IMG/VR virus record: IMGVR_UViG_3300042868_002307
Coordinates: 1-33,371 of that record
Length of the DNA: 33,371 nt
Origin: a virus
Direction: 5' to 3' (one strand)
Each line of letters begins with the position of its first letter. Position 1 is the first letter of the stretch. This document shows, piece by piece, positions 3,301 to 14,002 of this stretch. A model generated the notes under the pieces. The model was not told the DNA's origin. It searched no databases and was given only the letters and a program-made list of their open reading frames with translations. The position numbers and the translations under genes were made by a program.

Positions 3301-3758
3301 GTACGGAAGCCGTTGCGATAGCGGCCTCGCTCTGTCGGCAGTTTGAAGGGCTGTATCTCAAGCCTTATACGTGCCCGGCCCTCGTGGCGACTGTGGGCTA
3401 CGGATCGACCCGGTACGAGGATGGGCGCAGAGTAACTCTAGCAGACGCCCCGATAACCCGAGCCCGGGCCGAAGAACTTTTGCGGTGGGAGCTAAATAGG
3501 GTCTGCATACCTGCGGTAAGACGATCCTGCCCTAAGCTTACAGAGCCCCGCAAACTAGCGGCGATACTGGATTTCACCTTCAACCTAGGCTCCGGAAACT
3601 TGCATAGCAGTACGCTTCGTAAGAAAATCAACCTCGAAGACTGGGCTGCTGCGCAGTTAGAATTGGCTAAATGGGTACGCGGCGGGGGGCGCATACTCCC
3701 CGGCTTGGTAAAACGCCGCGCTGCAGAAGCCGCACTATTAAGGTCTATATGCCCATAA
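3297..3758 (+). CDS. Endolysin, GH24 lysozyme (T4/P22-type muramidase)
   Basis: This 153-residue protein has the size of a single-domain glycoside hydrolase 24 lysozyme, which cleaves the beta-1,4 bond between N-acetylmuramic acid and N-acetylglucosamine in peptidoglycan. The catalytic triad has the family spacing E-8x-C/D-5x-T: Glu17 in 'FEGLYLKPY', Cys26, and Thr32 in 'TVGYG'. The conserved C-terminal region is present ('LDFTFNLGSGN' at residues about 89-100, then 'WVRGGGRILPGLVKRR' near 126-141). No signal peptide or N-terminal anchor is visible, so export should depend on the adjacent holin. The gene starts within the holin stop (ATGA) and its last 10 bases overlap the next gene. No spanin was recognised. 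Confidence 0.92.
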   Translation: MSTEAVAIAASLCRQFEGLYLKPYTCPALVATVGYGSTRYEDGRRVTLADAPITRARAEELLRWELNRVCIPAVRRSCPKLTEPRKLAAILDFTFNLGSGNLHSSTLRKKINLEDWAAAQLELAKWVRGGGRILPGLVKRRAAEAALLRSICP

Positions 3759-5887
3759 AAAAAATTGGAATCCAGAGTGGAGTCTCGAAGGAAAATACCC
3801 GCTACACCTCCGAAGGCAAATGGTACGACAGCGACAAGATTCGGTTTCGTAAAGGGACCCCCGAGAAGTTAGGTGGGTGGGCTCGGTATTCCGTCTATAC
3901 ATTTCTAGGCGTATGCCGCTCACTGTGGACATGGGTTACGCTTACTGGACTGACGCTTATAGGCGTGGGTACAAACCTGAAGTTCTATATCAACAAGGGC
4001 GGGCTGTACTATGACGTAACGCCTATTCGGAAAGTTGTACGCCCCATGCTTGGGGCTACAGGCACGGGAAACCCTTTCACTGCCACTCTAGGCTCTAATA
4101 TTATTACGGTCTACGATACGGCACATGGAGGTGGGTCGAATGACTTTGTATCCTTCAGTGGAGCGGTAGGGCTTGGCGGTAACATAACTGCGGCTCTACT
4201 TAACCAAGAGTACCAAGTAACCGTTATCACTGCCGATACCTATACGATTACCGTTGCAACTACTGCTACAGGTACTGATGTAGCGGGCTCTCCGGGTGGA
4301 GGTGCGGCGGTTGTTGCCGCGTACCAAGTCGCTACAGGGTTAGAGGTACAAAGCCCCGCTGCTGGATGGGGTAGTGGTGGCTGGGGGTCCGGAGGCTGGG
4401 GGACTGGGGTTACGGTGGGTACGCCGCTTCAGCTTTGGAGCCAGAATAACTTTGGTGAGAGTTTGGTGTTTGCCCCTGCGGGTGGGGCTATATATTACTG
4501 GAATGCGAGCGCTGGGCTGGGTACTTCGACCTTTACCGTGACTATCGGGGCAACCGCGGTACTGACCTTTACGACTGGCCCCCTGCTACTTAACGGTACT
4601 GCAGTCATGCTAGAGACCACTGGGGCACTGCCTACAGGGCTCCTTACCTATGTGGTGTACTACGTTATAAACTCCACAACAGTTAGCGGGGTTACTACGT
4701 GCAATCTATCCACCACGTACGGCGGCACTGCTATAACTACGTCTGGAACTCAGTCGGGCACCCATATCCTTTCTAATAGGGGAATTGCAGTTACGTCTTT
4801 GGGTGGGGCCTCCAACGTTCCGATTGTTCAGAACGCGATCTTTATATCGGACACAAGCCGCTTTGTGTTTGCCCTAGGGGCTAACGAATTCGGGACTGCC
4901 ACACAAGACCCTATGGTGGTACGCTGGTCCGATCAAGAGTCTGTAACCCAGTGGACGCCATCTGCCACTAATCAGGCAGGAAGCATTCGGCTCTCTCACG
5001 GGTCCAAAATCGTAGCTTGCTTGCAGGCGCGGCAAGAGATTCTGATATGGACCGACTCCACCCTCTATGCATTCCAATATGTAGGGGCTCCGGTAGTTTG
5101 GCAGACGCAGCTTGTGGGCGATAACATTTCGATTATGGGGCCTAACGCAGTAGCCCTAGCTTCAGGCGTTGTCTACTGGATGGGTATTGATAAGTTCTAC
5201 ATGTATGACGGTACAGTACGAACCCTTGACTGCGACCTGCGAAAGTTTGTCTACCAAGACATCAACCTGACGCAAAACTACCAAGTATTTGCGGGCACCA
5301 ATGAAGGCTTTAATGAAGTCTGGTGGTTTTACTGCGCGGCAGCTAGTACCGCGATCAGTAATTATGTTATCTACAACTACGTCGAGAAGGTTTGGTACTA
5401 CGGCACGATGGGACGCACCGCATGGCTCGACTCGGGGCTAATAAACTACCCTATTGCGGCTACATACAGCCATAATATCGTCAACCATGAGTTTGGGGTG
5501 GACGATGAAGAAACGGATGTAACGCTCCCGATCCATGCCTATATCTCCTCCTCTGAGTTCGATATGGATGACGGGGATCACTTCATGTTTGTATACCGTA
5601 TGCTACCTGACCTCTCGTTTGCGGGGTCTACTGCAGGCACTACTGCGGAGGTAACCTTGGGGCTGTACCCCATGAAGAACTCTGGGTCGGGCACGGGATC
5701 GCTTGTATCTCAGCCTGTTAACCAATTGACTGGGGCGGAATACACCGTAACTGAAGGGTTTACAGGGCAGATTTACACGCGCCTTCGCGGGCGGCAGATG
5801 ATCTTGAAAGCCTCGTCCAACAAAATAGGTACCGCATGGCAACTAGGTTCTATCCGTTTCGATGTAAGGCCTGATGGGAAACGTTGA
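3749..5887 (+). CDS. Large structural protein, P22 gp10-like stabilisation/tail protein candidate
   Basis: I place the start at ATG 3749, giving 712 residues. The longer frame from 3671 begins inside the endolysin gene, whereas 3749 has an upstream AAGG and gives the N-terminus 'MPIKKIGIQSGVSKENTRYT' that I recognise from many podovirus structural proteins. A WG-rich turn ('GWGSGGWGSGGWGTG', residues about 207-220) and 'DPMVVRWSDQESVTQWTP' also fit that group, which is often matched to the P22 packaged-DNA stabilisation protein gp10 (beta-propeller hub at the portal-tail junction). Two segments, residues about 107-193 and 258-342, look like inserted beta modules interrupting the conserved sequence. 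Virion location is likely. The exact equivalence to gp10 is inferred. Confidence 0.7.
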   Translation: MPIKKIGIQSGVSKENTRYTSEGKWYDSDKIRFRKGTPEKLGGWARYSVYTFLGVCRSLWTWVTLTGLTLIGVGTNLKFYINKGGLYYDVTPIRKVVRPMLGATGTGNPFTATLGSNIITVYDTAHGGGSNDFVSFSGAVGLGGNITAALLNQEYQVTVITADTYTITVATTATGTDVAGSPGGGAAVVAAYQVATGLEVQSPAAGWGSGGWGSGGWGTGVTVGTPLQLWSQNNFGESLVFAPAGGAIYYWNASAGLGTSTFTVTIGATAVLTFTTGPLLLNGTAVMLETTGALPTGLLTYVVYYVINSTTVSGVTTCNLSTTYGGTAITTSGTQSGTHILSNRGIAVTSLGGASNVPIVQNAIFISDTSRFVFALGANEFGTATQDPMVVRWSDQESVTQWTPSATNQAGSIRLSHGSKIVACLQARQEILIWTDSTLYAFQYVGAPVVWQTQLVGDNISIMGPNAVALASGVVYWMGIDKFYMYDGTVRTLDCDLRKFVYQDINLTQNYQVFAGTNEGFNEVWWFYCAAASTAISNYVIYNYVEKVWYYGTMGRTAWLDSGLINYPIAATYSHNIVNHEFGVDDEETDVTLPIHAYISSSEFDMDDGDHFMFVYRMLPDLSFAGSTAGTTAEVTLGLYPMKNSGSGTGSLVSQPVNQLTGAEYTVTEGFTGQIYTRLRGRQMILKASSNKIGTAWQLGSIRFDVRPDGKR

Positions 5888-6760: not shown

Positions 6761-8671
6761 ATGCCTATGCCTGAAGATACCCCTACGGTGCCGCCTTTAA
6801 CGGCGGGCAGTAATAAAAATCAAATTGCTGACGCCTATAGGCAGTACTTTTCCCAACTTGGGGGGGCTACAGACGCTAATCGTAGTGAAGCTAAAACGTA
6901 CCTTCAAGGGCTTGGCATTTCGGACCCTGTAGCATCTCAGGGGTATGAAACCTATTTATTGGGCCAGCGTTACGCGGACTATTTAGAGCAAAACCCTGAC
7001 GTCAAGGCGTATTACCAGCAACAAGGAAACTTTGACCCTATAGCAGCGGGCGCAAAACACTATTCCATGTACGGTTCTGGTGAGGCCCGTCCCGGTGGGG
7101 GCTTCCAAGACACAATTGATAGCTTAACCAAGCAGATTTTGGGTCAGGGGACCTCCTCAAAATGGGGTGGCGAGGCCTTCGGAAGTGCGGAATCCACCGC
7201 TAGAGATATGGCGCGGCTTTTGTCACGTGCAGGCCTTACAGACATTAAAGACTTTGGTGTTCGAGATAGAGTTATCCCGGAGCACGAGGTTTCTCAGGTG
7301 ACGGGGGAGGGAGACGTCCCATCCAGCTATATGGCTCCTGCTACCACAGTAAAGGAATACTACAACAAGGCGACTGGTGAATCCTTCGTAAACGACACCT
7401 ACGACAAAGCCAGAGGCAATACTTGGGGGGGAACTTTTGCTGGAGAGGGCTCTACTGAATATAACGTTCAATTTAAGCCTGATGGCACTCCCGTTTTCTA
7501 TACACAATACGGGGGTACCAGTAATGACTTCGCTAAACTCTTGCAGACCCCTGTGCTTGGGCACATACTTCAAGCAGGCGCTTCAATTTTCGGCGGGCCT
7601 CTTGGGGTTGCCGCGCTAAATCTTGCTGCGGGTCGAGATATTGAAGATGTGTTGAAAGCCGCGGCGCTTTCATGGGTTGGAAGTAGTGTTGCTTCTGGCA
7701 TCGCGGGCTTTAGCCCCGTAGTTGATGCCCTCGGGCAAACCGGGGCGAATATTGCAGGCCGCGTGGCGGGCTCTATTGCGACTGGCGGCGGCGTAGAGGG
7801 AGCGCTCCAAGCACTTGTCACGGGTGGGATTTCGGCGGCAATGCCTACGGTTACAGGCCTAATTCCGGGGTTTGATGACCTCCCCGATTTTGCGAAAAAA
7901 GCGGCTACCTCAGTAATAGCGAATACCCTAGTAGGGAAGCCGTTAGACCAGTCCATAATAAACGCGGCGCTTACCGCAGGTACAGATGCCGCTCGAAACG
8001 CCCTGAGCGATGCCGCTCGAGACGCCCGTACAGATACCTCTGCAACCCAGTTTGTGTTTAACCCCCGTGCAGACAGCGATCAAGCTACCAGAGACTTAGG
8101 TCTGACCCCTGCAGATACCTCTAGTTACGACACGACTACAACCCCGTTTGTGTTTAACGCCGCGAAAGATAGCCAGCAGGCTAACGAGGACTTGGTCCCG
8201 TTTGTGTTTAACGCCGCGAAAGATAGCCAGCAGGCTAACGAGGACTTGGGGCTGACCGCTACAACAACGCCCACACCGACGCCTAAAACAACGCCCACAC
8301 CGACACCTAAACCGACACCTAAACCGACACCTAAACCGACACCTAAACCGACACCTAAACCGACACCCCAAGTGCAGGCGCAGACCGCCGCAGCCTTAGG
8401 GTTCCCCCTCCTCGCCAATATGTTCTATTACGGCAAAGAGTTTGGTTCCAAGAAGCAAAAATTGAAGGGGCGGGGCGACCTAGTCGATGAGGACTACCGG
8501 GGTCTAAGTGTTACCGCTGCAGGAGCGGAGCCGTGGCAGTTTGCTGAGCAGCTTGCGGATACCCCTAAACCCGACGAAAATAGTGCGGACGAACTGATAC
8601 AGAAACTTACGGCAGGGGACTCATCTGCCACTACGCTCGATGAGCTAATGAACATTATTGGGAGAGCTTGA
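6761..8671 (+). CDS. Large virion protein, probable internal/ejection protein with repeat linker
   Basis: This is a 636-residue protein. Residues about 66-113 contain 'YLEQNPDVKAYYQ' followed by 'AKHYSMYGSGEARP', a small domain also present in the next gene. The middle (about 265-410) is rich in Ala/Gly and amphipathic or hydrophobic, as in proteins that insert into or cross the host membrane during DNA ejection. Residues about 425-500 hold three 'FVFN' peptides, two of them an exact 18-residue tandem repeat. A Pro-Thr-Lys repeat linker (about 503-537) precedes a short C-terminal domain. The gene has AAAGG ten bases before ATG 6761. No homologue with a known function was recognised. The ejection role is inferred from position and composition. 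Confidence 0.65.
   Translation: MPMPEDTPTVPPLTAGSNKNQIADAYRQYFSQLGGATDANRSEAKTYLQGLGISDPVASQGYETYLLGQRYADYLEQNPDVKAYYQQQGNFDPIAAGAKHYSMYGSGEARPGGGFQDTIDSLTKQILGQGTSSKWGGEAFGSAESTARDMARLLSRAGLTDIKDFGVRDRVIPEHEVSQVTGEGDVPSSYMAPATTVKEYYNKATGESFVNDTYDKARGNTWGGTFAGEGSTEYNVQFKPDGTPVFYTQYGGTSNDFAKLLQTPVLGHILQAGASIFGGPLGVAALNLAAGRDIEDVLKAAALSWVGSSVASGIAGFSPVVDALGQTGANIAGRVAGSIATGGGVEGALQALVTGGISAAMPTVTGLIPGFDDLPDFAKKAATSVIANTLVGKPLDQSIINAALTAGTDAARNALSDAARDARTDTSATQFVFNPRADSDQATRDLGLTPADTSSYDTTTTPFVFNAAKDSQQANEDLVPFVFNAAKDSQQANEDLGLTATTTPTPTPKTTPTPTPKPTPKPTPKPTPKPTPKPTPQVQAQTAAALGFPLLANMFYYGKEFGSKKQKLKGRGDLVDEDYRGLSVTAAGAEPWQFAEQLADTPKPDENSADELIQKLTAGDSSATTLDELMNIIGRA
8143..8250 (+). repeat. 54-bp tandem duplication encoding an 18-residue FVFN peptide
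   Basis: Two adjacent 54-bp units (8143-8196 and 8197-8250) are identical except for the last base. Each encodes a peptide built around 'PFVFNAAKDSQQANEDL'. The first 36 bases of this sequence context (8138-8173) recur exactly at 8871-8906 in the following gene, and a diverged copy ('FVFNPRADSDQATRDLG') lies just upstream. The identity points to recent duplication. Confidence 0.9.
8268..8370 (+). repeat. 12-bp tandem repeat encoding a Pro-Thr-Lys linker
   Basis: A 12-bp unit (ACCGACACCTAA and variants) is repeated head to tail and encodes 'PTPK' units. The linker separates the FVFN peptide array from the C-terminal domain of the 636-residue virion protein. Repeats of this kind expand and contract readily by slippage, so copy number may vary between isolates. 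Confidence 0.9.
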
Positions 8672-8672
8672 T

Positions 8673-11306
8673 ATGCCAACTATTCTGGGCGATAACGATG
8701 GGGCTAACAAAACGTTTTGGGATCTGTTCTTTGGTGGGGGCGACACCGACGCCGACTCCCACGAGGCGGTTAATGAAGCGTACTGGAAGGAGCTCATTGG
8801 TGGAGGTGTAACCGATAACGAAGCGGTTAATGACGCCTTTTGGAAGGAGTTCCATGAGAAAGGTACGTTTACAACCCCGTTTGTGTTTAACGCCGCGAAA
8901 GATAGCTCTGAGGCCAGTAAGCTTTTTGGGTTCACCGCTGAAGATGTATCTGAGTACAGCAAACCTGAATGGACCAAAATCCTTAAGGCCTTAGGGCTAA
9001 CCCCAACTAGTGCCGCAGTGCTTGGCGGCGCAGGGCTAGGTGCATTTTTTGGCGGCTCTGGCGGCTCTGGCGGTTCTGCGGGGGATACCGGCTACAAAGG
9101 GGGGATTCCTTCTCTTGCTGCTAGTCGAACCATGCTGCCTATTCCGCATACAGTGACTACAGACGCAGGGGGTGAAGCGTATTTACGGGCGAACCCGGAT
9201 GTGGCTGCAGCATACAAAGCTGACTCACAGGGGTTAAGCCCCAAAGATTACGCAGCGACGCATTACGCTAAGTTTGGGCAGGGTGAAGGGCGTACGTTGG
9301 CTACGGCACCTCGCAGGGCTGGGTCCGGTGGAGTTACATACTTCAGCCCCATGCAGTACAAGCCTGTGGCCTCTAATCCCGGGCTAACCCCCACTCCGTT
9401 TACTCCGCCTCCCATTATCCCTGCTCCGATAACACCAACACCAACACCAACACCAACGCCAACGCCCACACCGACGCCCACACCGACGCCCACACCGACG
9501 CCCACACCGACGCCCACACCGACGCCAACGCCAAAAACGTATGCCCCCTTAGGTGCTACCGAGCGGGCTACCGTCGAGCGAATGGCTAGGGAACAAGCCA
9601 CGGCCCAAGGAATCAGTCCCGAAATGGCGTTGTACCGATACGCACAACAGCAAGGTATTTCCAATGCGGGAGTGGATACGTTAATGGGGTTTGAACCGGG
9701 CTCTACCGATAAATGGGTAGGTGGGCAGCCTTCCTTACAAGCGAACGCTGCAATGGGTATAGCAAGTTTAACGCCAACGCCAACGCAACAATACGCCCCT
9801 CTGGGGGCTACCGAGCGGGCTACTGTAATCGCGGAAGCCAACAAGCGAGCGGCTGCGCAGGGTATTTCCCCCGAAATGGCGCTGTATAACTACGCACGGT
9901 TCTACGATATCCCCAATGCGGGGGTTGACACCCTGATGGGGTTCGAACCGGGCACTGCCGATAAATGGGTAGCGCAGAATATTCCCGCACCTCAAGGGAA
10001 TACATATGTAGCGCCAATTGGTGATGGGGAGGTTGCCTCCGTGTTCAAGCCCGGTGATACAGTGAACCCCAACGCGGTACCATTCAACGGGCCGGGGTCC
10101 AAGGCTGCATGGACCGCTGCACAGGACGCTGCACTGGGTGCTGCACAAAACGAAGAGGTTGCCTCCGTGTTCAAGCCCGGTGATACAGTGAACCCCAACG
10201 CGGTACCATTCAACGGGCCGGGGTCCAAGGCTGCATGGACCGCTGCACAGGACGCTGCACTGGGTGCTGCACAAAACGCTGCGCAAGGTATAGCAAGTTT
10301 ACCTACAACGGCTACGCCTCCCCAATACGCCTTCTTAGGCGAGACGGAAAAAGCGCGAGTCATTGCGGAGTTTAATAGACTTGCCGCTGCCCAAGGCATT
10401 AGCCCAGAAATGGCAATGTATAACTACGCACAACAGCAGGGTATCCCCAATGCGGGGGTTGACACCCTGATGGGGTTCGAACCGGGCACTGCCGATAAAT
10501 GGGTAGCGCAGAATATTCCCGCACCTCAAGGGAATACATATGTAGCGCCAATTGGTAATGGGGAGGTTGCCTCCGTGTTCAAGCCCGGTGATACAGTGGA
10601 CCCCAACGCGGTACCATTCAACGGGCCGGGGTCCCGGGCTGCATGGGAAGCTGCACGGGACGCTGCAATGGCTAAAGCAGGTTTAACGCCACCGCCAAAA
10701 ACGAACGCTGCAATGGGTATAGCAAGTTTAACGCCAACGCCAACGCCAACGCCAACGCCAACGCCAACGCCAACGGCTACGCAACAATACGCCCCTCTGG
10801 GGTCTACCGAGCGGGCTACCGTCGAGCGAATGGCTAGGGAACAAGCCACGGCCCAAGGGATCAGTCCTGAAATGGCGTTGTACCGATATGCACAACAGCA
10901 AGGTATCCCCAATGCAGGGGTTGATGCAATGATGGGGTTTACCCCGGGCTCGACTACTAGCTGGCTAGCTACGCAGCCTGCACCTCAAGGCCACTCGTAC
11001 ACGGGCGCTACCCCCGTAAAACTTGCACAGGGCGGCATTGCATCTCTGGCTAAAGGCAGACTGCTTAATGGTCCGGGGGATGGCGTTTCGGACTCTATCC
11101 CTGCGTCTATTGATGGGCACCAACCCGCAGCGCTTGCAGACGGCGAATACGTCATACCGGCCCGAATCGTGTCTGAGCTTGGGAATGGGTCTACTAAAGC
11201 AGGTGCGCAACAGCTAGACGCTATGATGAAACGCATTCAAACTACTAGGCGTAAAGCAACCAATATTGCCGCAAATACGCGAGCCACTAAACACCTCCCC
11301 GCATAA
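8673..11306 (+). CDS. Repeat-built virion protein with four ISPEMALY modules and a C-terminal 'LADGEYVIPA' domain
   Basis: I choose ATG 8673 (877 residues). The TTG at 8658 lies in the upstream gene, whereas GGAGAG at 8661-8666 suits the ATG. Layout: residues 1-60 contain repeated 'A(N/V)xxFW/YW' peptides; near 68-78 is one 'FVFNAAKDS' peptide; about 165-210 is a 'YLRANPDVAAAY...HYAKFGQGEGR' domain shared with the previous gene; about 254-288 is a Pro-Thr linker. Four copies of a roughly 67-residue 'QGISPEMALY' module start at residues 290, 374, 552 and 706. A 42-residue unit occurs at 453, 495 (identical) and 631. Residues about 783-877 form a C-terminal domain with 'LNGPGDGVSDSIPA' and 'LADGEYVIPARIVSELG', which I know from structural proteins of environmental podoviruses. 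A virion role is likely; its action is unknown. Confidence 0.75.
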   Translation: MPTILGDNDGANKTFWDLFFGGGDTDADSHEAVNEAYWKELIGGGVTDNEAVNDAFWKEFHEKGTFTTPFVFNAAKDSSEASKLFGFTAEDVSEYSKPEWTKILKALGLTPTSAAVLGGAGLGAFFGGSGGSGGSAGDTGYKGGIPSLAASRTMLPIPHTVTTDAGGEAYLRANPDVAAAYKADSQGLSPKDYAATHYAKFGQGEGRTLATAPRRAGSGGVTYFSPMQYKPVASNPGLTPTPFTPPPIIPAPITPTPTPTPTPTPTPTPTPTPTPTPTPTPTPTPTPKTYAPLGATERATVERMAREQATAQGISPEMALYRYAQQQGISNAGVDTLMGFEPGSTDKWVGGQPSLQANAAMGIASLTPTPTQQYAPLGATERATVIAEANKRAAAQGISPEMALYNYARFYDIPNAGVDTLMGFEPGTADKWVAQNIPAPQGNTYVAPIGDGEVASVFKPGDTVNPNAVPFNGPGSKAAWTAAQDAALGAAQNEEVASVFKPGDTVNPNAVPFNGPGSKAAWTAAQDAALGAAQNAAQGIASLPTTATPPQYAFLGETEKARVIAEFNRLAAAQGISPEMAMYNYAQQQGIPNAGVDTLMGFEPGTADKWVAQNIPAPQGNTYVAPIGNGEVASVFKPGDTVDPNAVPFNGPGSRAAWEAARDAAMAKAGLTPPPKTNAAMGIASLTPTPTPTPTPTPTPTATQQYAPLGSTERATVERMAREQATAQGISPEMALYRYAQQQGIPNAGVDAMMGFTPGSTTSWLATQPAPQGHSYTGATPVKLAQGGIASLAKGRLLNGPGDGVSDSIPASIDGHQPAALADGEYVIPARIVSELGNGSTKAGAQQLDAMMKRIQTTRRKATNIAANTRATKHLPA
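9432..9534 (+). repeat. Pro-Thr codon repeat (6/12-bp units)
   Basis: Tandem ACACCA, ACGCCA and ACGCCCACACCG units encode an uninterrupted Thr-Pro linker of about 34 residues between the NPDV domain and the first ISPEMALY module. The unit changes along the array, which suggests successive expansions. Confidence 0.9.
10029..10280 (+). repeat. 126-bp perfect tandem duplication
   Basis: Units 10029-10154 and 10155-10280 are the same over about 124 bases, encoding a 42-residue unit that begins 'EVASVFKPGDTVNPNAVPF' and contains 'NGPGSKAAWTAAQDAALGAA'. A diverged third copy begins at 10563. Absence of synonymous change between the first two units means a very recent duplication, or an assembly artefact that read data could exclude. 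Confidence 0.92.
10731..10774 (+). repeat. 6-bp ACGCCA tandem repeat (Pro-Thr linker)
   Basis: Seven head-to-tail ACGCCA-type hexamers encode a Thr-Pro run just upstream of the fourth ISPEMALY module. A short two-unit version of the same hexamer precedes the second module near 9771-9784, so linker and module appear to be duplicated together. Confidence 0.88.
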
Positions 11307-11315
11307 GGACTTAAC

Positions 11316-12371
11316 ATGGCAACCGCACCTACCACTACACCCGGAAGCAGCGCTTCCACCCTGTCTACTTGGGCAGGGCCCTATGTAACGGATATGCTAG
11401 GTCAGGCTCAAGGCATTGCGGCTACGCCTTACCAGACCTACCAAGGCCCCATGACGGCAGGAGAGTCGGGGCTGCAGTCCAAAGTCTTTCAAGGGTTAGG
11501 AAACCTAACCATGCCGCAAAACTTAGGGGGCACCTTCGCGCAACAGGGCGGGTCTTTCTTCCCTAAAGACGGGGCTGGCGGGGCGCAGCAATACACCTTC
11601 TTAGGAGCCGATCAATCCGCAAAGGTTATGGCTGAAGCTAAAAGGCAGGCTGCTGCGCAGGGTATTTCCCCCGAAATGGCGTTATATCAATACGCAAAAA
11701 TAAACAACATCCCCAATGCGGGGGTGGATACGTTAATGGGGTTTGAACCGGGCGCTACCGATAAATGGGTAGGTGGGCAGCCTTCCCTACAGTCAGGTCT
11801 TCCTCAGGGGGCCGGTACGGGTCAGCCCTCAAGCGTAGCGCAGTCCTACATGAACCCGTACTTGCAGTCTGTGCTGCAGCCGCAGATGGAAGAGCTTCGT
11901 CGCCAATCTCAAATTACTCAAATGGGTAACGCTGCCAAGATGACAGGCGCTGGGGCTTTTGGAGGCGCTCGCCAAGGTATTATGGACGCCGAAACCCAGC
12001 GGAACCTCATGCAAGAGATGAATAAGACCGTAGGCCAAGGTTACGCGACGGCTTTTGATAAAGGCACAAACCAGTTCAACGTCGAGCAGGGTCAAGGTAT
12101 GGGGGTTGCAAACCTGCTAGCCCAACAGGGTGCGGTACAGCGTGGGATCGAACAAGAAGGTGTAACAGCCGACTACAATGAATTCCTTACGCAGCGGGAC
12201 TATCCTATGAAGCAAACTCAGTATCTGCAGTCAATGCTTCAGGGGCTGCCAATCTCTACCGTAACTAGCTCCGCTGCGCCACAATCTACACTGGGAAACC
12301 TCACCTCCACAGTGGGCGGCCTAGGCTCCTTGTTCGAGAATATTAAAAAACTCATCCCCGAGACCAAATGA
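11316..12371 (+). CDS. Virion protein carrying one inserted ISPEMALY module
   Basis: This 351-residue protein has AAGGAC upstream of ATG 11316. Residues 1-75 ('STWAGPYVTDMLGQAQG', 'PYQTYQGPMTA') and 170-351 ('YMNPYLQSVLQPQMEELRRQ', 'GAFGGARQGIMDAE', 'DYPMKQTQYLQSMLQG') match the style of a conserved structural protein in environmental podoviruses. Between them, residues 93-159 are a fifth copy of the module found four times in the preceding gene. The C-terminal half is Gln-rich and helical. By position it is probably part of the internal core or ejection apparatus. The last bases overlap the next start (ATGA). No enzymatic motif was seen. Confidence 0.7.
   Translation: MATAPTTTPGSSASTLSTWAGPYVTDMLGQAQGIAATPYQTYQGPMTAGESGLQSKVFQGLGNLTMPQNLGGTFAQQGGSFFPKDGAGGAQQYTFLGADQSAKVMAEAKRQAAAQGISPEMALYQYAKINNIPNAGVDTLMGFEPGATDKWVGGQPSLQSGLPQGAGTGQPSSVAQSYMNPYLQSVLQPQMEELRRQSQITQMGNAAKMTGAGAFGGARQGIMDAETQRNLMQEMNKTVGQGYATAFDKGTNQFNVEQGQGMGVANLLAQQGAVQRGIEQEGVTADYNEFLTQRDYPMKQTQYLQSMLQGLPISTVTSSAAPQSTLGNLTSTVGGLGSLFENIKKLIPETK
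11592..11791 (+). repeat. Fifth ISPEMALY module copy, in a different gene
   Basis: This copy resembles the module at 9540-9740 in the previous gene. The last 75 or so bases of the two (ending near 9740 and 11791) differ at only about four positions, so exchange between the two genes is recent. The flanking sequence in this gene is unrelated to the donor gene. Confidence 0.88.
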
Positions 12372-14002
12372 TGAACCAAATGCAATCTCAACCTATGCCA
12401 ATGGGCCAACCGCAAGGCGCTCCACAAGGGGGTCCTCAAGGATTCAGCGCTCCCGCTGCCGGGGTAAATCTGTTCAAAGTTCAAGAGCAGTTGAAGGACA
12501 TGCCGCAGCAGCAGATCATGGCGTACGCCAACGGGTCCAATCCTGACATGGTGCCTCCATATATCGCCTTAGGCGAGATGGAACGTCGCACGCGCATGGC
12601 TAAGAATGCGCAGACCGGCCAGCCCCCACAAGGTACTGTCAAAGACAATCTGGAGAACCAGATTAAGCAGACTGCGGGTATCGCATCCCTCGGTAATATG
12701 CGTCCGCAGCAGATGGGGCAGGCCCAAGCACAGCAAGCTATGAGTACCCCCGGTGCCGTACCGGGCGGAGTGCCCCAACCCCAGCCCCAAGGGGAGCCCC
12801 CTGTAAGGATGGCCCAAGGCGGACTTGCTTCGGTGCCTATCAACTCCCGCATGACTGCGTATAAAGATGGCGGTATTGTTGGGTACGCAGAGGGCGGGGA
12901 TGTAGAGGACGAAGAGGACGAAGAAGATGACATGGGAGCCCCTAGTCCGGTAATGCTTGCTAGCGCTCAACTTCCGGGGGCGGGTATGGGAAACCCAATG
13001 GGGGACTATGCGGCTGCTAGAGACGCAATTACCGCGCAGATGGGCAAAAGAGGCCCTGCACCTAAATCCCGCGAAGAAATAATAGCTGCATTGACCCAAT
13101 CAAATCCTGAACAAGCCGCCATGCTGAAGCGGGATGTTGAGGGTGAATACCTTAAACGTTTGGAAGAATTGCAAGGCAGACAAGGGGAGAACGATATCCG
13201 GGCTCGAGAAGACCTGCAATCTCGTAGGCGTATGGACTTGTGGCAATCGCTTATTGCTGGTGGCGAAGGCTCTCGGGGCCGGGGTATTGGCGGACTCATG
13301 GCGGGTATGGGGCAGTCGCTTGGGCGTTCGTACGCAGAAAGGGCCGCAGAGGAAGCTGCACTGCGTGACTTACCCCTTAAACGCCAAGAGATTATGGTTA
13401 AGGCGCAGTATGAGATGCAAGGATTGCAACGCGCTCGCGCGGAGGGGGATATTAAAGCCGCCACCATGCACCAGCAAAACTTGGCTAAGCTAGAAAATGA
13501 AGCGAAGAAGGCTGAGTTGGGCGCATTGGGCCGATCTGTCGGCGCAGCAGGTAATGTAGCCGGTCGATATGTGTCCGGGGAAGCAACTAAAGAAGCGGCT
13601 CGAACTTATGCCGCACAACGCCTTGAGTCTTCAAAAATTGCTGCGAAATCCAAAGAGGTGCGTGCAGGTTTACGGGGTAGTGGAAAAACTCCTCCAACGC
13701 CCATAGACATAGAAATGCTGCTAGCCGAATACAAGGAACTTGTAAAAGCAAATGCCGAATCTCCTAAGCTAAGCGAACCTGAGGGCTTACGTGCAGAGCG
13801 AGCCGCTCGCATTACAGAGATTAGGCAGCAGCTAGAAGCCTTTGGTAAGACTGGCAAACGCCTCCCCGATTCTGCCCCCGCAGGCCCAACCGCAGGTCCA
13901 ACCGCAGGTCCAGTAAAGATATCCAGTGACGCTGAGTACAATGCGTTAGCAAGCGGGACTGTTTTTATCGGGCCCGATAATAAACCTCGGAGAAAGCCAT
14001 AA
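12368..14002 (+). CDS. Gln/Gly-rich internal virion protein candidate
   Basis: This is a 544-residue protein whose ATG overlaps the previous stop. The N-terminus is low-complexity (Met/Gln/Gly/Pro). Residues about 140-180 contain 'AQGGLASVPINSR' and 'KDGGIVGYAEGGD', motifs often seen in structural proteins of environmental podoviruses. An acidic run of Asp/Glu follows (about 178-188). Residues 215-430 are predicted by eye to be long charged helices, probably coiled coil, with many Arg/Glu/Ala/Leu. The C-terminal 40 residues hold a three-fold 'AGPT' repeat and a small beta end. Its position before the very large protein suggests a core or pilot protein like T7 gp14/gp15. That is inference, with no catalytic motif seen. 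Confidence 0.65.
   Translation: MMNQMQSQPMPMGQPQGAPQGGPQGFSAPAAGVNLFKVQEQLKDMPQQQIMAYANGSNPDMVPPYIALGEMERRTRMAKNAQTGQPPQGTVKDNLENQIKQTAGIASLGNMRPQQMGQAQAQQAMSTPGAVPGGVPQPQPQGEPPVRMAQGGLASVPINSRMTAYKDGGIVGYAEGGDVEDEEDEEDDMGAPSPVMLASAQLPGAGMGNPMGDYAAARDAITAQMGKRGPAPKSREEIIAALTQSNPEQAAMLKRDVEGEYLKRLEELQGRQGENDIRAREDLQSRRRMDLWQSLIAGGEGSRGRGIGGLMAGMGQSLGRSYAERAAEEAALRDLPLKRQEIMVKAQYEMQGLQRARAEGDIKAATMHQQNLAKLENEAKKAELGALGRSVGAAGNVAGRYVSGEATKEAARTYAAQRLESSKIAAKSKEVRAGLRGSGKTPPTPIDIEMLLAEYKELVKANAESPKLSEPEGLRAERAARITEIRQQLEAFGKTGKRLPDSAPAGPTAGPTAGPVKISSDAEYNALASGTVFIGPDNKPRRKP

Follow-up and report, generated by a model that had tools for sequence, protein, structure and literature searches.

A small helical module repeated in two adjacent virion genes of a virus contig and found in ejection and tape measure proteins

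Analysis of a virus contig of 33,371 bases (IMGVR_UViG_3300042868_002307; "the window" denotes this entire stretch) revealed five copies of a module of ~62–68 residues in two adjacent virion genes, which encode proteins A (877 residues; 8673–11306, + strand) and B (351 residues; 11316–12371, + strand). Computational comparison places the module family in similar positions in podoviral ejection proteins and in the C-termini of siphoviral tape measure proteins. With middling confidence, we regard the module as a binding bead, tethered to DNA-delivery proteins and present in several copies to gain avidity, which is the best explanation of the data as a whole.

Module copies and their exchange between two genes

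A profile built from the five copies gave exactly five strong matches in the window (independent E-value, i-E, ≤ 2e-39 each). Four lie in protein A, at 9537–9740 (copy 1; i-E 3e-42), 9789–9980 (copy 2; 6e-40), 10323–10514 (copy 3; 8e-40) and 10785–10982 (copy 4; 2e-39), and the fifth lies in protein B at 11589–11792 (copy 5; 2e-41), all on the + strand. A DNA-level repeat search located the same five places, and a search of the record itself also yielded five; the number and coordinates in the original prediction, which had been made from the letters of this DNA, were right. Among the five copies, 30 of 68 columns are invariant. Near-identical DNA across the genes, also claimed there, was confirmed by a match at 72 of 76 bases between 9665–9740 and 11717–11792. 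The protein B copy, in contrast, does not interrupt conserved sequence as had been supposed, but sits in a variable-length, Gly/Ala/Pro-rich linker between two conserved blocks.

The copies were found to be mosaic. Over the last 75 bases, identity between copies 2 and 3 reaches 99%, against 57% over the first 72; for copies 1 and 5, which belong to different genes, it is 91% in the last part and 44% in the first, and copies 1 and 4 are more alike at the start (88%) than at the end (71%). Synonymous codons were identical at 22 of 22 sites in the C-terminal segment versus 11 of 27 elsewhere for copies 2 and 3 (p 5e-6), and at 18 of 20 versus 7 of 21 for copies 1 and 5 (p 3e-4). These patterns fit partial recombination, across genes included, and a history in which copies multiply by duplication and then swap partial tracts, also between both genes, is strongly supported. 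Domain copying between virion genes had been proposed beforehand, and the codon and permutation tests bear it out, since the copies have tracts in common across the protein A and B genes. Judged by its sequence, one further locus (L171) is an independent parallel case of copying between neighbors: two adjacent genes (1–414 and 418–1842, − strand) each carry a module copy, with 170 of 189 bases identical.

Domain movement among ejection proteins has precedent (PMC8954989), and fragment shuffling of phage proteins is established, with tape measure proteins over-represented in mosaicism by a sequence-based definition (Smug et al. 2023, PMC10684548). The module resembles the mosaicism described by Smug et al. 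in that fragments are common to otherwise unrelated phage proteins; it differs in that the sharing also occurs within one genome, between adjacent genes and tandem copies, and in partial tracts. The module family is new to the libraries searched, whereas the underlying process, phage protein mosaicism, is of a known kind. What the family displays is partial gene conversion between neighboring virion genes, which is less often described than exchange between phages.

Comparison with relatives showed that the copy number (protein A + protein B) varies among 4+1, 3+1 and 0+0. One diverged relative, recovered from two metagenomes (L009 and L010, identical to each other in the module region) and 85% identical to the window over 10730–12399, contains three protein A copies and the same protein B copy at the same place. 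In L011 and L012, the flanks at 11024–11563 and 11808–12399 are 93–95% identical to the window, but the 244 bases between them, which form the module-bearing linker slot of protein B (11564–11807, + strand), have no homology there; L011 carries in its place 88 bases coding a Gly/Ala/Pro linker. The four protein A copies are likewise gone in both, with stop-to-stop protein A frames of 316 and 307 residues (288 residues in L017). Because relatives with flanks about 94% identical lack every copy, the module is a recent gain or loss and dispensable in some phages, and because the two tracts lie 540 bases apart (94.8% identity), two separate changes are likely. The copies were either lost in L011 and L012 or brought into the window lineage by recombination. 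The module was not found in either gene in about 40 further orthologues. The window and L011/L012 offer a natural comparison with and without the module.

Predicted fold and wider family of the module

Structure prediction agreed with the proposal that the module is a domain. Modeled alone with ten sequences, it gave a predicted local distance difference test (pLDDT) score of 86 and four helices at 7–24, 28–38, 43–50 and 56–63. In a model of protein B (41 sequences), pLDDT was about 90–94 over most of residues 91–160, which hold the module (about 90 for copy 5), and 42–47 on both sides, followed by long helices. The module is thus an autonomous predicted domain both in isolation and within protein B, where it is predicted to form a compact four-helix unit between disordered linkers. 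Asp47 and Trp60 are invariant in 21 diverse members, and Gly51 and Gly55 are conserved in over 90%; all four residues stand in register after G-[IVL]-[ST] (alignment A8). The ratio of nonsynonymous to synonymous substitution rates (dN/dS) between copies is 0.09–0.25, which indicates that the module sequence is under purifying selection.

Library profile searches of Pfam, NCBIfam and PHROGs gave no family that covers the module, in agreement with the prediction that it has no named family, and no published description of it was recognised among the top titles listed from the open-licence literature. Single copies matched parts of Pfam DUF2240 and DUF3173 weakly (E 0.018 and 0.045), with all single-copy scores under the curated cut-offs. 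One whole-protein DUF2240 score exceeds its cut-off, yet no single stretch passes alone; DUF2240 was rejected as the identity of the module because the whole-protein E of 1.5e-6 sums weak matches, single copies being at 0.018 or worse.

A tblastn search of one copy against 50,697 phage records gave none at E ≤ 1. Widening with a profile and degenerate patterns in IMG/VR revealed module-bearing loci L066 (two copies), L074 (two copies and a DUF4214 domain), L078, L082, L071 and L080, and nine of ten new loci from further widening (L163–L172) carry the module. By profile comparison, the module is not confined to this phage: it belongs to a broad family that occurs in ejection and tape measure proteins of many unrelated phages. 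Members occur in three settings: the N-terminal region of proteins that have the protein B core or resemble it in make-up (L071, L082, L164, L169, L172); tape measure C-termini, directly before 'LPAF..G..' or similar (L080, L168, L165/L167/L170, L166, L083, L173); and several copies amid low-complexity linkers (the window, L066, L074, L171). In the second setting, L080 corresponds to phrog_16823, L168 to Pfam TMP_3, and L173 to a prophage tape measure protein from the order of Ralstonia; L083 and L173 were found by tblastn and by profile, respectively, without a residue-fixing pattern. Thiohalocapsa phage LS06-2018-MD03 is an example of a module-bearing relative in culture. Alignment of the window copies with the ejection-type and tape-measure-type copies gave hhalign probabilities of 96.8% and 97.4% over helices 2–4, and the region of helix 1 varies in length across the family. 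L066 also contains, at 7233–10073, an Ala-rich two-module protein directly after a gene that by eye resembles an M15-type peptidase.

Bacterial genomes yielded few members. The narrow profile A3 found none in 698 Pseudomonadota genome look-ups, which covered first-pass candidates only and are weak evidence of absence, and the broad profile A8 found one (L173) among the first-pass candidates from 399 genome look-ups in the order of Ralstonia. Among 55 pattern matches in bacterial genomes, only L094 seems clearly to belong to the family, and the majority of the rest are probably chance matches. The hits of one query were not counted, since they mostly matched the tape measure C-terminal motif and not the module.

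The module-bearing proteins and their gene neighborhood

Protein B consists of a conserved N-terminal block, the linker slot, an NPY...GAFGG.R core and long helices. Twelve of 17 members of its family match phrog_4287, 'DNA ejection protein' (best E 2.3e-10). Like podoviral ejection proteins (phrog_4287; compare T7 gp14/15/16 and P22 gp7/16/20), the family is helix-rich, and protein B, like its counterpart in Phage DSL-LC04, lies between a tail hub ('stabilization') gene and the gene of a large LPD38 protein. It differs from these proteins in that the window protein itself falls below threshold and that the module is an extra domain without a counterpart in most orthologues. No PDB fold match for protein B was obtained at E ≤ 0.001.

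The open reading frame of protein A encodes N-terminal repeats, (Thr-Pro)n linkers, the four modules and a C-terminal hook/hairpin motif, GGIASLAKGRLLNGPGDGVSDSIPASIDG..ALADGEYVIPARIVSELGNG..., at 11033–11240 (+ strand), which is conserved in orthologues without modules. The motif matched residues 1014–1059 of the tape measure protein of phage JBD30 by BLASTP (E 6e-5), the best place in 1158 residues; hhalign gave 98% against an alignment of three such motifs including JBD30, and only 30% against JBD30 alone. In terms of sequence, protein A has the C-terminal hook/hairpin motif that marks tape measure proteins, but in place of their long helical body it is mostly low-complexity linker, N-terminal repeats and modules, and no tape measure protein family in Pfam matched this body. 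In JBD30, two helices and a hairpin at residues 1022–1066 are predicted to make up a hook, which has been proposed as a baseplate anchor, and residues 930–1021 ahead of it are predicted to be unstructured (PMC11445458). The modules of protein A fill the stretch before the motif, matching this pre-hook unstructured stretch, and the hook-type ending follows the fourth module. Siphoviral tape measure C-terminal regions (JBD30 gp46, T5 pb2, TMP_3 family) are similar in that several tape measure proteins carry the module ahead of their hook/hairpin motif; JBD30, on the other hand, has the hook without the module, and the window phage looks short-tailed. The JBD30 hook was rejected as a counterpart of the module, since it corresponds to the motif that comes after it.

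The tail hub gene (3671–5887) matches phrog_3287, and among its relatives, in Phage DSL-LC04, Pelagibacter phages HTVC023P/HTVC027P, Pseudomonas Bruynoghevirus and other phages, are genes with annotations of phage stabilization, needle head or tail protein. This resemblance to short-tailed phages in gene content points to a short tail for the window phage. After the tail hub gene come the genes of proteins A and B, then those of a protein of 544 residues and an LPD38 protein of 1788 residues. This order recurs in Phage DSL-LC04, where the annotations read stabilization protein, tail tape measure protein, hypothetical, hypothetical and DNA transfer protein, except that two small genes intervene. 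HTVC023P gp79 and gp81 form a similar A/B pair, judged from the C-terminal motif and the NPY...GAFGG core. A fused A+B frame, in which the hook motif is followed by the protein B core, is apparent in L020, L041, L051, L052, L054, L059 and L063; such an apparent fusion suggests that proteins A and B work together.

Possible roles of the module and other repeats around it

The copies, fold class, linker setting, family, purifying selection and presence or absence in near relatives were established by computation; the binding-bead explanation goes beyond them. In it, the module would be a small autonomous helical domain, carried as a bead on the flexible linkers of two neighboring virion proteins. 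These proteins most likely act in DNA delivery, protein B having relatives annotated 'DNA ejection' and protein A ending in the tape measure hook/hairpin motif. A bead of low affinity, multiplied for avidity, may bind a partner that both proteins meet on their way out, most likely the tail hub or an ejection channel protein, with peptidoglycan as the next candidate. We infer binding from the common position of the module in flexible stretches of proteins which, judged from their counterparts in studied phages, exit the virion along with the DNA. More tentatively, and with a clear balance of doubt, the module could be a mobile docking domain present in two DNA-delivery systems that are not otherwise related, namely tape measure proteins in long-tailed phages and ejection proteins in short-tailed ones. 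Such a domain would recognise a single partner or ligand that both systems meet along the delivery path, and recombination between adjacent genes would amplify and homogenise it inside a genome. Tape measure and podoviral ejection proteins are analogous, as both exit the virion and help to form the DNA route. The link between them is the part of most interest, and a domain common to both classes, located in the linker by the tape measure hook, provides a small testable handle on contacts during envelope passage.

Several observations weigh against the binding-bead explanation. No fold match for the module was found in PDB or BFVD at E ≤ 0.001. The window protein B itself gave no phrog_4287 match, not reaching E 0.1. 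Since close relatives do without any copy, the function is dispensable in the lineage. One copy was seen in distant relatives of gene B, a second not being found in their partial records, so the pairing of the module in A and B is not obligatory. Part of the family was fetched with a pattern fixing about ten conserved residues, which inflates the scores. The permutation scan, although it agrees with the mosaic tracts, ignores uneven amino-acid conservation and is hence anti-conservative, a bias from which the synonymous-codon test is free.

The original prediction had suggested docking or the binding of DNA or peptidoglycan as possible roles; the DNA part is weakened by the acidity of the copies. 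As a peptidoglycan- or envelope-binding bead, linker-borne copies would retain the delivery proteins in the periplasm during channel formation. We consider this unlikely, although several copies in Pro/Thr linkers recall cell-wall-binding repeats and both tape measure and ejection proteins cross peptidoglycan: Pfam gave no match to LysM, PG_binding (including PG_binding_1), SPOR or similar, the sole transglycosylase match had E 0.15, and no catalytic domain was seen in a module-bearing protein among the loci read. Counted in its favor are also T5 pb2C, which is released into the periplasm and proposed to digest peptidoglycan (PMC10038345), and the hydrolase domain of T7 gp16, which can move to a gp15 homologue (PMC8954989). 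It appears improbable that the module is a helix-turn-helix-like domain that binds DNA, either to keep hold of the genome end or to pull the DNA as it is delivered. Helices 2–4 do have trihelical order and spacing (V46-D..M50-G51-F..W60), clearest in L173 (QRLSRATGISLSDIEAWVRA), a sigma-70 region 4 protein is the top, albeit weak, hit among viral folds (probability 0.66, E 0.8), and T7 gp15 and gp16 bind DNA (PMC8954989); however, whole-copy net charge is 0 to −4 in 14 of 14 copies tested, which makes DNA binding less likely, and neither a Pfam helix-turn-helix family nor a solved structure matched significantly.

The module might also be a passenger with almost no effect on fitness: a domain prone to recombination, whose main effect is on linker length and which spreads through the recombination of repeats. 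The absence of all copies from relatives about 94% identical in the flanks, the varying copy number and the abundance of tandem repeats in the linkers are what such a passenger would leave, yet dN/dS of 0.09–0.25 and two columns invariant over 21 diverse members indicate selection on a folded sequence, and we consider this explanation quite unlikely. An assembly or collapse artefact of repetitive DNA, raised in the original prediction as an error that could account for the copies, is very improbable: the region does contain a near-perfect 126-base tandem repeat and Thr-Pro tracts, but equivalent copies in a similar arrangement, diverged by about 15%, were assembled from two other metagenomes (L009, L010), and a third gives the first copy (L008, whose record ends inside the gene).

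Other repeats were observed around the modules. Protein A contains a tandem duplication at 10029–10278 that codes EVASVFKPGDTVNPNAVPFNGPGSKAAWTAAQDAALGAAQN, its units being spaced 126 bases apart and identical at 124 bases; a third copy, 85% identical, is located at 10563–10686. This is a second repeat family within the protein. Another repeat, YLRANPDVAAAY...HYAKFGQGEGR at 9174–9290, is related by eye to one in the upstream 636-residue protein, and in L011 it is missing, the gap falling precisely between two GGTGAAG words, as a deletion through recombination of short repeats would leave it; homology of this NPDV repeat to the module was not accepted, the similarity being weak (i-E about 100). 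Thr-Pro (or Lys-Pro) tracts made of 6- or 12-base repeats are located at 8261–8379, 9432–9538 and 10730–10782, in two adjacent genes, and differ in length among relatives. A peptide of the type PFVFN..(K/R).DS (8047–8249, 8876–8928) occurs three times in the 636-residue protein and once in protein A, and is another piece common to adjacent genes.

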